The notes beneath the pieces are model-generated. The model made no database searches and was not told the origin of the DNA. It was given only the letters and a program-made list of their open reading frames with translations. A stretch of 32,220 nt of DNA from a virus: positions 1-32,220 of the IMG/VR virus record IMGVR_UViG_3300047994_000599; one strand, written 5' to 3'. Made by a program: the position numbers and the translations under genes. How positions within the stretch are numbered: the stretch's first letter is position 1; each line of letters starts with the position of its first letter. Below are positions 6,194 to 13,557 of this stretch, one piece after another.

Positions 6194-6799
6194 ATGATGA
6201 CTGAAAACTTTAAGACCGGCTTCCGCAAACCGAATCCGACTGGCTACCTTGTGCTGGACTTCCCGCACGGGCCGATGACTGTTGTGGGTGGTCCTTTCGA
6301 CGCCTATATCGCTGGCATTGGCGTGTGCTTGGAGGAAGAGTCGGCTTTGGCTGGCGAGGCGCAAATTCTGTTCCCGATCCATGACTTCACTGCCCCGAAG
6401 GTTGAAGATCTGGAGCGACTTATTGCCGATATCATCGTTGCCCACGCGGCGGAGCCAAACGAGCCGGTGTTCGTTGGATGCCGTGGCGGCTTTGGTCGCA
6501 CGGGCACCGTTGTCGCGGCTCTGGTAAAGTACGCCCAGGAGATGACGGCCGAAGAGGGTGATGCTCTTCTCGACCCGATCAAATACACCCGCCAGAATTT
6601 CAACCCGAATGCGGTGGAAACTCAGCCGCAGGCCAATGTCGTTCGAGCGTTGAACGTCAATACCGTGCTGGAGCTGGTCGAGGGTATGCGTGGTGACGAG
6701 AAGGCCCCAGAGGTCGTTGAGACGGTTGTTGATCCGAATGCTGGATTGAATTTTTTCCAGCGTGCGGCTCGCAATTTCCTTGATCTTGTCTGGGGGTAA
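6194..6799 (+). CDS. Dual-specificity/tyrosine phosphatase-like protein 1
   Basis: Cys-based phosphatases of this fold remove phosphate from Tyr, Ser/Thr, or small phospho-molecules. The signature loop is Gly-Cys96-Arg-Gly-Gly-Phe-Gly-Arg102-Thr-Gly (Cys-X5-Arg), preceded by Val-Phe-Val. A general-acid candidate is Asp64 in Phe-Pro-Ile-His-Asp-Phe-Thr-Ala-Pro. The position before Cys is Gly where classical enzymes have His, which may change cysteine acidity or substrate range. The 201-aa protein is normal in length and has a C-terminal tail of about 60 residues ending in an amphipathic Phe/Trp-rich helix that might touch a membrane or a partner. It is one of two such enzymes in the module. 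The substrate is unknown; host phosphoproteins or the phospho-His dikinase-like protein are possible. Confidence 0.82.
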   Translation: MMTENFKTGFRKPNPTGYLVLDFPHGPMTVVGGPFDAYIAGIGVCLEEESALAGEAQILFPIHDFTAPKVEDLERLIADIIVAHAAEPNEPVFVGCRGGFGRTGTVVAALVKYAQEMTAEEGDALLDPIKYTRQNFNPNAVETQPQANVVRALNVNTVLELVEGMRGDEKAPEVVETVVDPNAGLNFFQRAARNFLDLVWG

Positions 6800-6848: not shown

Positions 6849-7874
6849 ATGTCGGTTATGTATCCATCGGATTGTCTCGCCTATCATATGGCGAGGCCTT
6901 TGTTCCGGCAGATGGACGTAAGTTCGGTTGCTTGCAGCGTGTATGCCCAGCAGATGAAGCAGTTCGACGTGCAGGGGTTGAATACAGAACCCCTGCCGGA
7001 GATTGATGCGCTTCGTTTCTATCAACTGAACCACGCGCTGGCGCTCATTCAGCAGAAGTTCCATCCTTTGGAGCCTTTGCCAAAAGAGTACCAGGATTTG
7101 GTGACGGAGTTTTTCGAGCAGACCAGCATCGCTGTGCGGAGGGCGATCTTCTACTTGATTATCATTTGCACTCGCGAGACCAGGCACCTGCACGCGAAGT
7201 CTGCCTGGACGCCGAAGCTGAGCAAGAAATACGGCGCGAAGGTTGCGGAGTATGTCTGCAGCCTTCCCGACGATCCAAAGACGGCGATGGGTATGTTCAA
7301 GAAAAACCCACCGGATGCCGCGATCGGGCCTTATGTGGAGGCTATCTACGAAGTGTTCAACTCCGGTAGCTGGTCTACTAATTACGGGGGAAAGAAATGG
7401 GCAGCCGTGACGGATTGCCTACGTTCCTTCGTGACGGGCAACTACTCGATGGTGATGTTGCTCGATACGATGTGGACGCTGAGCCATAATACAGGCCCGA
7501 TTTTCAATAAAGGGGATTTGTACAGCCACCATTTGGGTGGAAACTATCTCGTAAAAATCCTGGACGTTCAGCGCGCCGGTATGATCCCGACATTCATCGC
7601 CGACAAGGGTGAAGACCATACGCTGAATACCCTTCTGGCAAAGACACCTGATCTCTTGGATACGAACAAGAGAATTCATGAACTTTTCGATCTGCCGCGT
7701 ATCATGGATTGGGCGAAGGTTAATGAGCTGGGCTCTGTTCAGCAATACGACGCCGAAGGCTACGCGAATGGCCACAAGCCTTACAAGCCGATACCGCCGA
7801 AGCCGAAAGTCCCGATGTTCACCGTATACAACGGGTTCGATCTTCCTTACGCCAAACTGCAGAGGGCCGCATAA
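6849..7874 (+). CDS. Hypothetical 341-aa protein in the phosphatase cluster
   Basis: The protein is not recognised. It is soluble-looking, rich in helix, Tyr, His and Lys, with no signal peptide. Stretches that look conserved or functional are Thr-Arg-Glu-Thr-Arg-His-Leu-His (near residue 110), Gly-Gly-Lys-Lys-Trp-Ala-Ala-Val (near 180) and Leu-Ser-His-Asn-Thr-Gly-Pro-Ile-Phe-Asn-Lys-Gly (near 215-226), which could be active-site loops. The last 50 residues are Pro/Lys-rich. It lies between the two phosphatases, with only a one-base gap to the second, so the three are probably co-expressed. ATG 6849 is used because it follows a strong GGAGGG site. Confidence 0.75.
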   Translation: MSVMYPSDCLAYHMARPLFRQMDVSSVACSVYAQQMKQFDVQGLNTEPLPEIDALRFYQLNHALALIQQKFHPLEPLPKEYQDLVTEFFEQTSIAVRRAIFYLIIICTRETRHLHAKSAWTPKLSKKYGAKVAEYVCSLPDDPKTAMGMFKKNPPDAAIGPYVEAIYEVFNSGSWSTNYGGKKWAAVTDCLRSFVTGNYSMVMLLDTMWTLSHNTGPIFNKGDLYSHHLGGNYLVKILDVQRAGMIPTFIADKGEDHTLNTLLAKTPDLLDTNKRIHELFDLPRIMDWAKVNELGSVQQYDAEGYANGHKPYKPIPPKPKVPMFTVYNGFDLPYAKLQRAA

Positions 7875-7875
7875 T

Positions 7876-8622
7876 ATGGCATACCCCCACGATTTCGAAG
7901 ATCATAGCTGGAAGGATGACCCGGCCGCAGCGTTCGAGAAGATTGCGAAAGGGTTCTCCAACACGACACCCACCGCGACAGGGTTTAGCGCGAGCAGTCA
8001 GCAGTCAAAGGGAGGCAGCTATAAGACTGACTACACCAGTTCTGATCGCTGCTACCATAAACACCCGCCTTTGCCTCTGGGTGAGGGCTTGGTGATCTAT
8101 GGAGGCTCCTGCTGGAGCCCCGTTGTGAAAGACGCGGATATTTATATCGGTCTCGACGCAGGAATGAGCGAAACCGAGAAGCGTTTCCCCTGGACGCCAG
8201 GGCATGAGATCCGGTTCGTAATCACTGACACCCAGGCCCCGAAGAACCCCGCCGATTTCAAGAAACTTGTCGGCTGGACGGCGGAGCAGATACGTGGAGG
8301 CGCAAAGGTGCATGTGGGCTGCATCGGCGGTCATGGTCGCACGGGCTTGCTCCTGTCGGCTCTGGTATCGGTGATGCTGCCCGGCGAGGCTGACGCCATC
8401 AGCTACGTTCGGAAGAATTACTGCCAGAAGGCTGTGGAGTCCTCCGTGCAGGTAGATTTCCTGGTGAAGCATTTCGGTGTGAAGCCTGCTTCTGGGTCGA
8501 AAAATTATTCCAGCCTGAGCAATACCGGAAGCAACGTGACGACGATACCTCCCTCAAAATTCAAGGTACAGCACATTGCGAGTGATACGTGCATGTGGGG
8601 GAAGTCGGGGGCCGCGAAATAA
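7876..8622 (+). CDS. Phosphatase-like protein 2 (Cys-X5-Arg)
   Basis: The signature loop Val-Gly-Cys149-Ile-Gly-Gly-His-Gly-Arg155-Thr-Gly-Leu marks a second PTP/DSP-fold phosphatase. Asp118 in Ile-Thr-Asp-Thr-Gln-Ala-Pro sits where the general acid is expected. ATG 7876 is chosen because it directly follows the stop of the preceding gene; longer in-frame extensions run into that gene. The 248-aa protein has a Ser/Thr-rich N-terminal 60 residues and a Ser/Asn-rich C-terminal tail ending Cys-Met-Trp-Gly-Lys-Ser-Gly-Ala-Ala-Lys. It is not a recent copy of the first phosphatase, since little aligns outside the active-site loop. Confidence 0.78.
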   Translation: MAYPHDFEDHSWKDDPAAAFEKIAKGFSNTTPTATGFSASSQQSKGGSYKTDYTSSDRCYHKHPPLPLGEGLVIYGGSCWSPVVKDADIYIGLDAGMSETEKRFPWTPGHEIRFVITDTQAPKNPADFKKLVGWTAEQIRGGAKVHVGCIGGHGRTGLLLSALVSVMLPGEADAISYVRKNYCQKAVESSVQVDFLVKHFGVKPASGSKNYSSLSNTGSNVTTIPPSKFKVQHIASDTCMWGKSGAAK

Positions 8623-10200: not shown

Positions 10201-13200
10201 ATGACCAGCATAGTATTTTGGACTTCTGCGTCGGTGCAGGCGATCAAGAAGATCGTCGGCCCTGCACTAAAGCGCTGCCCGGAAACACCCAGCCATAGAT
10301 TCGTCAGTGTCGGTAAGGAACTCTATGTCCCCGCCCCGGACGAAATCTGTCTTGCTATGGGTGATGACGAGATCACTCTGATGGCCGAGGCCGGTATCGT
10401 GCAGAAGAACCGCAAGGCTGAGAGTTTACGAGGCAAGATATATCCGGCCGGTGAGGGGAGAGGGTCGTACATGATCAGCTACTCGCCGGATCTGGTATCG
10501 TTCGATCCAGGGCGAGAGACGGATATCGTCTGGGCGGTGCAATTAACTGCAAGATTTGCGATCACGGGTAGCACCGCCGCCGTGCTGGGTGAGTACCGCT
10601 GGGTGGAGCATTTCGAAGACGAGATAGCCATCATCGAGGCGAAATACGCGCAGACGGGTAAGCCTGTCCCTGTATCCGTGGATACTGAAACCCTTAGATT
10701 GTCCCCGTTCGATAGCGGGAGCCGGGTGGTCGCGATCGGCTTTACCTCGACCGAGGGCAGGGCCGACTGTGCGTACATCTCCGACCTGCAGACCGAAGAG
10801 CAGGCGAAAAAATTCCTGGGATCGGTCAGATGGTTGCTTACCAGCGATAAGGTGAAGCTTCGCCTGGCGCACGGGAAATTCGACTTGGCCTGGGTGGCGG
10901 AGAAGTGGGGCATTGAATGCACCAACTTCAGCATGGACACGCTTTTGGTTGGGTCGATGCTGGACGAGAATCGTTCTAACAGTCTGAAAACACACGTAAA
11001 ACACTATGATGTTTTGCTGGGTGGTTATGATGACGAAATGACCCAGAAGGATATGGAGAACATGGACCGCGTACCGAAGGATAAGCTCCTGCGGTATCTA
11101 GGCGGGGACGTAGACGGCACGCTTCGGATTTCCCGCCATATGATGGAAGAGCTGAAGCAGGTGCCAGAGACGATGAGGCTATACCTCACCATCGTTCACC
11201 CGGCCGCGAAGGTGTTCTCGAAGATCGAGCGAAACGGGATTTTGGTCGATGTCGAGGCCTACAGGGAGCTGAAAAACGACCTTGAGGTCGCCATCACCAA
11301 ACACACCAAAGAAGGGCTAGACCTGCTCCCAGCAAGGCTACAGGCCAAATTTGCAGACAATTTAAGCCTTTCCCGGCCAGCATTGCTGAAGGAGTATTTC
11401 TTCACGCCAGCGGGTTTGAACCTAAAGCCTCGCGTGACGACGGCCAAGAGCGGGGAGCCCTCCACGGCGAAGAGTCATCTGGAGATGTTTCACACGGTCC
11501 CAGAGGCGAAAGCCATGTGCTCCGTGCTGACGGACATCAATCAGGCGAAGAAAGCGCTCAGCACCTACGTCATCGGGTTTCTGGAATGCCTGAAGCCCGA
11601 CGGGAAGTTCCACCCGAGCTACTTCATGCACCAGGGCGACAATGAGTGGGGTGATGATGAAGGCGGTACGGTAACCGGCCGGCTATCGGCGAAAGACCCA
11701 GCCGTCCAGTGCATGGTTGGTGAAACGTTGGTTCTAACAACGGCAGGCTGGAAGCGCTTGGAAAACATGGTTAGTGCTTACGAAAATGGCCAGAGGTTCA
11801 CCGTGCTCACGCATACGGGGGAATGGATGCCTGTAATTGGAAGTTACCGAAATGGCGTTAAGCCTACCCTAACATTCAAACTTCGGTCGGGCAGGGAGAT
11901 TACCTGCACGCCTAACCATCCTATTTTAACCAGCCACGGTTTTATAAAGGCGGAGCATATCCGGCTTGGCGACCGGGCATTCCAACTTGGGGGGGAAATT
12001 GCCTACAATAGTCAGCTTGACGGGGAAGAAATTTGGAAGGCTTCTCGTGCTGGAGTCCGTAATAACGCCAGGCGGCAGAAGGCAGCGCTGCCAGTGCGAC
12101 TGCGGGAAGATCAGGTTAGTAGTTACGGGCAATCTGACTTCGGGGAACACCACGAGCTGTGGTTGCCAATGGGGGGAGAAGAAGGTCACGCACGGGCACA
12201 AACGGAACGGGCAAGTGTCCCGCACCTACCATGCGTGGTATTCGATGAAAACACGGTGCCGAAACCCGAAATCAAAGGCGTTTTCGGACTACGGAGGCCG
12301 CGGAATTACCTACGATCCTGCCTGGGAGACTTTCGAGGGCTTCCTAAAATATATGGGAGAGTGCGCGCCGGAGTTCGAATTGGAACGCCAGGATGTGAAT
12401 CAAGGTTACAACAAGAACAATTGCTGCTGGATTCATCGAAGCAAGCAAAATTCGAACAAGAGGACCAGCCACCGGCTGACGTTTCAAGATCAAACGATGT
12501 GCGTGGCGGAGTGGGGCCATGTAACTGGCTTAGGGGAGACAGTGAAGCGGAGAATTCAAAAAGGGTGGTCTGTGGAAGCAGCGCTGACGACGCCAAAGCG
12601 GCCTATGAAGCCGGCTTCACAATGGAAGAAATCGTTAACATCACCTTCACAGGGCTCCGCGAAACCTTCGACCTGACGATCGAGGGAAGCCACTCCTTTG
12701 TGGCTAACGGTGTTGTTGTCCACAACACTGTTCCCAAGCGCAACAAATGGGCGAAGAAAATCCGCAAATGCTTGATCGCGCCGGAAGGCTACATGATCCT
12801 GGAGGCCGATAGCGCGCAGGGGGAGCTGAAGCTTACCGCCTGCGTCGCCGAAGAACCCACGATGTTGGATCTGTACATGAACGGAGGGGATCTGCACACG
12901 AAGACAGGCGCAGGGTTGGCGGGTCTCGAAATGGACGAGATGATGGCCTTGAAGGAGAGCGATAAGGATCAGTTCGCGTTGTTCCGTTACAAGGCCAAGG
13001 CCGCGAATTTCGGGTTGATCTACGGTATGGGGGCCGAGGGCTTCCAGCGCTATGCGTGGAATAGCTATGGCCTGGCTCTTACCCTGGAAGAAGCAGAGAA
13101 GATTCGGAGTGCGTTTTTCAACACGTACACGGCCCTGCCGGAATGGCATAAAACATACAAGAACCTCGCCTATAAGCATGGGTTTGTCGTCTCGCCTCTG

Positions 13201-13557
13201 GGCCGTACCCGCCATCTGCCCCAGGTGTGGAGTTCCGATCGCCAGACCGCTTCGAAGGCTGGCCGTCAAGGCATCAATTCACCCATCCAGTCCACGCTCT
13301 CGGATATGCTGTGCTGGGCCTTCGCGGAGATTGATGCCGCATATGGCGATATCATCAAACCAATCGCCTCGATCCACGACGCCGGTTACTGGCTGGTGCC
13401 TGAAGATCGCGTGATGGAGTGCGCTGTGCGCGTGACCGACATCATGGGCAATCTGCCATTCGAGAAAATGGGTTGGACCCCGCAACTGAAGTTCAACGCC
13501 GATGCGACTGCGGGCCGCAACCTGGGCCAGATGGAAGAGCTGAAGCTGGCTGCCTAA
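10201..13557 (+). CDS. Family A DNA polymerase containing an intein
   Basis: This is the replicative polymerase with 3'-5' exonuclease. Exonuclease motifs are Ser-Val-Asp-Thr-Glu-Thr (Exo I), His-Gly-Lys-Phe-Asp-Leu (Exo II) and Tyr-Leu-Gly-Gly-Asp-Val-Asp (Exo III). Polymerase motifs are Thr-Gly-Arg-Leu-Ser before the intein, motif A Asp-Ser-Ala-Gln-Gly-Glu-Leu-Lys-Leu, motif B Lys-Ala-Ala-Asn-Phe-Gly-Leu-Ile-Tyr-Gly and motif C Ile-His-Asp-Ala. The precursor is 1118 aa; removing the 339-aa intein leaves 779 aa, normal for phage enzymes. The N-terminal ~130 residues before Exo I are not recognised. Motif C has Ala where Glu is usual (His-Asp-Glu), which may slow catalysis or alter fidelity. 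Motif A has Gly where Ile is common. Splicing is needed because the insertion separates the TGRLS motif from the rest of the polymerase domain. Confidence 0.95.
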   Translation: MTSIVFWTSASVQAIKKIVGPALKRCPETPSHRFVSVGKELYVPAPDEICLAMGDDEITLMAEAGIVQKNRKAESLRGKIYPAGEGRGSYMISYSPDLVSFDPGRETDIVWAVQLTARFAITGSTAAVLGEYRWVEHFEDEIAIIEAKYAQTGKPVPVSVDTETLRLSPFDSGSRVVAIGFTSTEGRADCAYISDLQTEEQAKKFLGSVRWLLTSDKVKLRLAHGKFDLAWVAEKWGIECTNFSMDTLLVGSMLDENRSNSLKTHVKHYDVLLGGYDDEMTQKDMENMDRVPKDKLLRYLGGDVDGTLRISRHMMEELKQVPETMRLYLTIVHPAAKVFSKIERNGILVDVEAYRELKNDLEVAITKHTKEGLDLLPARLQAKFADNLSLSRPALLKEYFFTPAGLNLKPRVTTAKSGEPSTAKSHLEMFHTVPEAKAMCSVLTDINQAKKALSTYVIGFLECLKPDGKFHPSYFMHQGDNEWGDDEGGTVTGRLSAKDPAVQCMVGETLVLTTAGWKRLENMVSAYENGQRFTVLTHTGEWMPVIGSYRNGVKPTLTFKLRSGREITCTPNHPILTSHGFIKAEHIRLGDRAFQLGGEIAYNSQLDGEEIWKASRAGVRNNARRQKAALPVRLREDQVSSYGQSDFGEHHELWLPMGGEEGHARAQTERASVPHLPCVVFDENTVPKPEIKGVFGLRRPRNYLRSCLGDFRGLPKIYGRVRAGVRIGTPGCESRLQQEQLLLDSSKQAKFEQEDQPPADVSRSNDVRGGVGPCNWLRGDSEAENSKRVVCGSSADDAKAAYEAGFTMEEIVNITFTGLRETFDLTIEGSHSFVANGVVVHNTVPKRNKWAKKIRKCLIAPEGYMILEADSAQGELKLTACVAEEPTMLDLYMNGGDLHTKTGAGLAGLEMDEMMALKESDKDQFALFRYKAKAANFGLIYGMGAEGFQRYAWNSYGLALTLEEAEKIRSAFFNTYTALPEWHKTYKNLAYKHGFVVSPLGRTRHLPQVWSSDRQTASKAGRQGINSPIQSTLSDMLCWAFAEIDAAYGDIIKPIASIHDAGYWLVPEDRVMECAVRVTDIMGNLPFEKMGWTPQLKFNADATAGRNLGQMEELKLAA
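10538..10551. repeat. Palindrome copy, one mismatch (TGCAATTAACTGCA)
   Basis: This copy of the recurrent palindrome has one mismatch in the right arm and lies inside the polymerase gene. It may be a chance match. Confidence 0.3.
11710..12726 (+). other. Intein in DNA polymerase at the TGRLS-proximal site
   Basis: The 339-aa intein starts at Cys504 (block A: Cys-Met-Val-Gly-Glu-Thr-Leu-Val-Leu). Block B has Thr-Pro-Asn-His-Pro-Ile, block F reads Thr-Phe-Asp-Leu-Thr-Ile-Glu-Gly-Ser-His-Ser-Phe-Val, and it ends Val-Val-His-Asn before a Thr at +1 (12727-12729). All splicing residues are present. The main-frame linker between blocks B and F (about 200 residues) resembles no known domain and is rich in Arg, Gly and Gln. 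The same DNA read in the +1 frame encodes a complete HNH endonuclease, so the linker is probably the shadow of that gene. Confidence 0.93.
11966..12676 (+). CDS. HNH homing endonuclease nested out of frame in the polymerase intein
   Basis: In the +1 frame relative to the polymerase this ORF encodes a phage-type HNH endonuclease. Residues 18-30 read Leu-Thr-Gly-Lys-Lys-Phe-Gly-Arg-Leu-Leu-Val-Leu-Glu, the usual N-terminal motif. A Cys cluster Arg-Cys-Gln-Cys-Asp-Cys-Gly (41-47) with Ser-Cys-Gly-Cys (64-67) suggests a zinc site. The HNH core includes Tyr-Gly-Gly-Arg-Gly-Ile (109-114), the Glu-Arg at 140-141 where Asp-Arg is usual, Gly-Tyr-Asn-Lys-Asn-Asn-Cys (147-153) and Gln-Asn-Ser-Asn (161-164). 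Residues 177-210 resemble a C-terminal DNA-binding repeat ending Gly-Trp-Ser-Val-Glu-Ala-Ala-Leu-Thr-Thr-Pro. It fills the space between intein blocks B and F. No ATG opens it; TTG 11966 is listed, while TTG 11987, 11999 or 12017 are possible. It would nick or cut intein-less polymerase alleles to spread the intein. Confidence 0.75.
   Translation: MATGHSNLGGKLPTIVSLTGKKFGRLLVLESVITPGGRRQRCQCDCGKIRLVVTGNLTSGNTTSCGCQWGEKKVTHGHKRNGQVSRTYHAWYSMKTRCRNPKSKAFSDYGGRGITYDPAWETFEGFLKYMGECAPEFELERQDVNQGYNKNNCCWIHRSKQNSNKRTSHRLTFQDQTMCVAEWGHVTGLGETVKRRIQKGWSVEAALTTPKRPMKPASQWKKSLTSPSQGSAKPST

Follow-up and report, generated by a model that had tools for sequence, protein, structure and literature searches.

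The stretch analyzed here, a viral contig of 32,220 bases from IMG/VR (hereafter the window), encodes a family A DNA polymerase (PolA) interrupted by an intein (11710..12726, + strand), and the DNA of that intein also encodes, in its +1 frame, an HNH endonuclease (11999..12676, + strand). We consider it probable that this element is a mobile intein with its homing endonuclease encoded separately, by a +1 gene lying between Hint blocks B and F. The polymerase precursor is a single open reading frame (ORF; 10201..13557, + strand, 1118 aa) with matches to DNA_pol_A (expectation value, E, of 3e-51), DNA_pol_A_exo1 and Intein_splicing, and divides into an N-extein (10201-11709), the intein and a C-extein (12727-13557), all on the + strand. 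No stop codon interrupts it across the whole intein, as an earlier note on this DNA had claimed, and the same holds for ten further contigs discussed below. That note had also assigned the out-of-frame HNH enzyme to 11710-12726; the +1 placement is correct, but the nuclease gene covers only about 11999-12676 of this interval.

The +1 ORF opens at 11948, and its first start codon, TTG 11966, would give a product of 236 aa ending at the TGA stop at 12674-12676; TTG 11999 is the preferred start, with TTG 11987 or TTG 11966 possible. The product matched the phrog_374 HNH family with an E of 8.8e-48 over residues 11-209; this match was found in PHROGs only, Pfam giving none to the nuclease. Its zinc-type Cys cluster (12089..12166, + strand) comprises CxCxCG at 12089-12106 and CGC at 12158-12166, and aligned with those of the relatives L020 and L094. 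The HNH core motifs (12290..12430, + strand) are YGGRGI (12290-12307), ERQDVNQGY (12383-12409) and NNCCW (12416-12430), with YGGRGI and the HNH core residues aligning with the HNHs of the relatives. Profile match and core motifs together place the product among phage HNH endonucleases of phrog_374, and it belongs to one protein family with the free-standing phage HNHs of phrog_374 and phrog_3377, its identity to phage genes being 35-49%. The Cys cluster and the core described in the earlier note were both present, and its view of a full enzyme was borne out, although the C-terminal DNA-binding repeat it proposed was not separately identified. The G+C content by codon position was 0.47/0.49/0.66, a coding-type pattern that belongs to the HNH frame rather than to that of the polymerase.

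The intein, 339 aa in the polymerase frame, carries the motifs of a class 1 (Hint) intein: Cys1 (11710-11712), the Thr and His of block B within TPNH, and a terminal His-Asn ending in Asn339 (12724-12726), followed by Thr at +1. TIGR01445 and TIGR01443 both matched above cut-off, as did Pfam Intein_splicing. An AlphaFold model built with an eight-row alignment displayed a Hint fold, with predicted local distance difference test (pLDDT) values >90 over most of both halves, and Foldseek related it to the Mtu RecA and Ssp DnaB mini-inteins with an E of about 1e-7. The N-terminal Hint splicing domain (11710..12000, + strand, residues 1-97, pLDDT 92-96 for residues 1-90) contains block A (11710-11748, + strand) and block B (11905-11928, + strand). 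The C-terminal Hint splicing segment with blocks F and G (12562..12726, + strand, residues 285-339, pLDDT 81-95 from about residue 290) contains the motifs RETFDLTIEGSHSF (12658-12699, + strand) and NGVVVHN (12706-12726, + strand). Between them lies the polymerase-frame translation of the nuclease gene, hereafter the shadow linker (12001..12561, + strand, residues 98-284), which is predicted to be disordered, with pLDDT <50 throughout. The modeled folding pattern is as expected with the linker as a by-product and the +1 protein as the folded one. A fractured gene or split intein would have the host frame broken between the intein halves, and here the polymerase frame is open. A group I intron carrying an HNH gene was also considered and was rejected, since the window gave no Rfam match at gathering thresholds and hence no intron RNA structure.

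Relatives were retrieved from IMG/VR using the insertion-site pattern TGRxS...P..Q|C..G.T together with two intein alignments (Hint-N and C-intein). No relative came from a single-sequence search of viral contigs with the whole intein, nothing from a DNA-level search of phages, and no PolA member from one genome-contig scan. The pattern and alignments identified 10 further distinct viral contigs whose version of this PolA intein contains an HNH (L020 (=L011), L021 (=L006), L022 (=L014), L027, L028 (=L010), L029, L094, L101, L102 and L106; L101 comprises the 3' part only), all of them with the HNH at +1 and the polymerase frame open. L102 was identical over the overlap to L103 and L104, the three coming from three metagenomes. 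A canonical homing intein has its endonuclease in the Hint frame; the HNH was at +1 in all 11 lineages, and no in-frame version of this HNH was found at the PolA intein site. Related states were found as well, with L023 representing a mini-intein and L105 retaining a short HNH remnant. Taken together, these findings indicate that the double-coded layout, recurring in at least ten other environmental phages, represents a second, conserved design for a mobile intein.

Comparing change in the two frames across these relatives, as the earlier note had suggested, gave divergences of 0.41/0.37/0.62 at HNH codon positions 1/2/3 (all pairs), and a mean identity of 0.49 in the HNH frame versus 0.26 in the polymerase frame. 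By these measures it is the HNH frame that, in the relatives, codes for protein under purifying selection. Shuffles among codon pairs encoding identical residues reproduced the polymerase-frame identity in most pairs; 5 of 26 non-independent pairs exceeded the shuffle at P<0.05, the excess being small, and in neither hydropathy nor hydrophobic fraction did the shadow linker depart consistently from shuffles. Given this small excess and the lack of a consistent composition bias, we do not claim conservation of the shadow linker beyond its openness.

Openness itself departed sharply from the shuffles. Synonymous shuffles with each gene's own codons predicted 2.8-11.6 polymerase-frame stops per gene, compared with 0 observed in ten genes, and the summed log10 P(open) over the ten embedded genes was -41. 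For the window nuclease, such shuffles averaged 8.0 stops and 0 of 20,000 were open. In the +1 layout every stop requires a T at the HNH third position before AA, AG or GA, and any such stop is avoidable by a synonymous T-to-C change. Among the NNY codons able to make a stop in the ten genes, we counted 0 T and 156 C, compared with 302 T and 260 C elsewhere (n=562). The free-standing phage homologues provided a natural control: each of 13 had 1-28 stops in the equivalent frame, compared with 0 of the 10 embedded genes having any. This codon usage indicates that the polymerase frame is kept open by synonymous choice in the nuclease gene, and that the constraint upon it is essentially only the absence of stop codons. 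The earlier suggestion that both frames are constrained was therefore upheld for the nuclease, which is conserved as a protein, while for the polymerase frame it reduces essentially to stop avoidance.

We separately considered whether a +2 phase is impossible. All tested embedded PolA HNHs contain a Met with K, T or I as the next residue, and this pair imposes a TGA on a +2 host frame; some free-standing relatives lack that Met pair, however, and the +1 bias is explained only in part.

With respect to how the nuclease may be translated, eight of the relatives (L020, L021, L022, L027, L028, L029, L094 and L106) possess an ATG at intein nucleotides 266-284 with a G-rich Shine-Dalgarno sequence about 8 nt 5' of it, exemplified by AAAGGAGAtatttgttATG in L029, and in most of these eight the Shine-Dalgarno and start bases double as codons of the Hint motif LxxGDxCY. 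In L102, TTG or ATG candidate starts lie nearby. In the window, a Shine-Dalgarno-like G run, GGGGGGGAAA (11989..11998, + strand), lies just 5' of TTG 11999, with a duplex energy of -10.5 kcal/mol in the upstream stretch. The nuclease is probably translated from its own internal start.

Several observations weigh against the interpretation of a mobile intein with a self-initiating +1 nuclease. The window nuclease lacks an ATG, its start being TTG only, and is in this respect the weakest case among the relatives. Shine-Dalgarno energies of -5.5 or lower occur at 26% of positions in the same inteins; because the energy alone is weak, the argument for an internal start rests on the shared position and the ATG. 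A PDB fold search with the HNH model (mean pLDDT 76) returned no match with E <0.001. Finally, the window HNH is without a close relative, a single-sequence search of viral contigs with it having found none, and selection on the window copy would be read from its codon-position base composition and intact motifs.

The missing ATG at the conserved position and the lack of a near relative for a selection test also bear on the view that the window nuclease is decaying or silent, its selfish phase being over and only the open polymerase frame mattering now. Degraded stages do exist elsewhere, as in L105 and L023. We nevertheless regard this as unlikely, as the window ORF and the HNH motifs are intact and the coding-type G+C pattern sits in the HNH frame. 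A slightly poorer prospect is programmed frameshifting or transcriptional slippage at the G7 run (11989-11995), by which the nuclease would arise as a shunt product fused to the Hint N-part and not from a start of its own. This run is the sole G7 (or C7) in the window and stands exactly at the would-be frame junction, but the relatives lack such a run at this place, most having a Shine-Dalgarno sequence and an ATG there instead, and the shift required is +1 (or one base fewer in the RNA); frameshifting at the run is possible only for the window copy. That two compensating indels from sequencing or assembly mask an ordinary in-frame intein endonuclease, a case the earlier note had itself raised and for which a homopolymer does stand at the frame junction, can be dismissed almost entirely, since the +1 phase recurs with an open polymerase frame in the ten other contigs, no in-frame case was found at the site, and L102-L104 are identical across three metagenomes.

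For the preferred reading, a mobile intein with its endonuclease as a separate gene, we propose the following mechanism. Translation of the polymerase frame would yield the precursor, from which the Hint halves would fold and splice out, with the nuclease region serving as a long disordered linker. The nuclease would be translated from the mRNA of the precursor as well, internal initiation taking place at a start codon preceded by a Shine-Dalgarno sequence, and would cleave polymerase alleles that lack the intein at the Q|T site, thereby driving copying of the whole intein. The sequences show the intein and the HNH by homology, the recurring phase, the avoidance of stops, purifying selection on the nuclease frame of the relatives and the patchy distribution; splicing, internal initiation, cleavage and homing we infer, homing in particular from the family.

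The comparison with an intein-less allele proposed in the earlier note could be made with L002, which encodes the same polymerase and has AIQ|TVPKR at the site; no closer polymerase was found, the identity being 71% in the best segment and 62% over the C-extein. The distribution of the intein is patchy. The polymerase of L029 is very divergent, with 21-29% identity to the others over the C-part; its Hint nevertheless shares 43-64% identity with theirs, and the L029 HNH falls within the 7-member clade described next. Intein and nuclease thus appear to travel together, judging from this divergent polymerase, similar Hint and shared HNH clade. In the HNH tree, seven embedded HNHs formed one strong clade, with those of the window, L020 and L094 falling outside it, suggesting several HNH acquisitions, although a single clade for all embedded HNHs was not rejected by the approximately unbiased (AU) test (p 0.16).

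Intein endonucleases are usually described as in-frame domains. Canonical endonuclease inteins share with that of the window a Hint domain whose blocks B and F flank the endonuclease, but in them the endonuclease is read in the Hint frame as one of the domains of the intein. The polymerases of L093 and L099 each carry two inteins in tandem, separated by about 12 residues, the downstream one with an HNH at +1 and the neighboring upstream one with in-frame NUMOD4/HNH_3 matches, a conventional example in the same gene. Dassa et al. (2009, cited in PMC6801210) reportedly described fractured genes in which split inteins are accompanied by free-standing homing endonucleases. As proposed for the window, the endonuclease of such systems is its own protein between the intein halves; unlike them, the window has an uninterrupted host frame, the interruption being present in the split relatives L024 and Amona (see below). 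The free-standing HNHs of phrog_374 and phrog_3377 belong to the same protein family but are never open in the equivalent frame (n=13).

The nearest published precedent, the ShiLan domain, lies outside the inteins. It and the Pacc40 gp60 insertion are out-of-frame HNHs in actinobacteriophage DNA methylases, for which the authors found no intein or intron and could assign no splicing element (PMC11855218); Applejack likewise has a methylase with an out-of-frame HNH (PMC12613952). The ShiLan domain resembles the window intein in hiding an HNH in another frame of an insertion, in its open host ORF and patchy distribution, and in the internal initiation proposed for it. It differs in that the window has a complete canonical Hint intein with the HNH at the usual endonuclease site. 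Moreover, the ShiLan HNH lies in the third frame and begins with GTG without a detectable ribosome binding site (PMC11855218), whereas the HNHs described here lie at +1 and, in most relatives, have a Shine-Dalgarno sequence and an ATG. A literature search identified no intein with an out-of-frame endonuclease, though a preprint on actinobacteriophage inteins of "non-canonical architecture" (10.1101/2025.01.02.630785) may describe some.

Other phage inteins were found to harbor endonucleases outside the host frame. In the isolated Xanthomonas phage FoX3 (L003 2501-3442), a helicase intein matched by both N and C intein models has an open helicase frame and a LAGLIDADG_2 endonuclease in the +2 frame (E 9e-22). 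Gordonia phage Clown (L004 2348-3502) has a TerL intein with an HNH at +1 (HNH_3 E 4e-6, phrog_1271 E 2.5e-31). In L050 (3161-3721), a UDG-PolA fusion contains an intein at another site, in which a helix-turn-helix (HTH) and HNH_3 are encoded at +1, preceded by GGAGG and starting with GTG. In L025 (3278-5344), the PolA intein at site 1 lacks an HNH and is a split mini-intein, and a probable second-site PolA intein at GNFG|C has an HNH at +1, its Hint judged by eye with no model match. The shuffle P(open) was 0.008 for FoX3 and 0.027 for Clown, the latter being weak owing to high G+C, and 0 of 20,000 shuffles were open for L050 and L025.

Split forms were also observed. In L024 (1474-4671), a PolA intein with an HNH at +1 is split by 15 polymerase-frame stops, its halves lying in one frame, and GTG 3544 and ATG 3616 are candidate starts of the C-half. 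In the Pectobacterium phages Amona, Ymer and Abuela (L131 2075-5185, L132 and L133), a LAGLIDADG gene in another frame overlaps both halves of a split helicase intein, which lie in one common frame and are separated by 13 stops.

Elsewhere in the window, ORF 605-2980 (terminase-like) contains a second intein (1250-1789), a 180-aa mini-intein without an endonuclease that is matched by both N- and C-intein models, and ORFs 6194-6799 and 7678-8622 both match one thymidylate synthase PHROG (phrog_17568).

We put at about even the chance that out-of-frame, self-initiating endonucleases represent a general second phage-intein architecture, reached repeatedly by unrelated nucleases (phrog_374 HNH, HTH-HNH_3, phrog_1271 HNH and LAGLIDADG_2) in polymerase, terminase and helicase inteins, and a possible bridge from contiguous to natural split inteins. 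The sequences suggest that out-of-frame nucleases may lead on to split inteins; such forms would be reachable because, with the nuclease having its own start, host-frame stops need only a second internal start for a fractured gene to result. Surveys confined to the host frame will have labeled such elements large inteins without an endonuclease. With the nuclease as an independent overlapping gene, protein splicing and homing would be uncoupled on one shared DNA, making approachable the invasion of inteins by nucleases, the viability of overlapping genes under a rule of no third-position T before AA, AG or GA, and the origin of split inteins.
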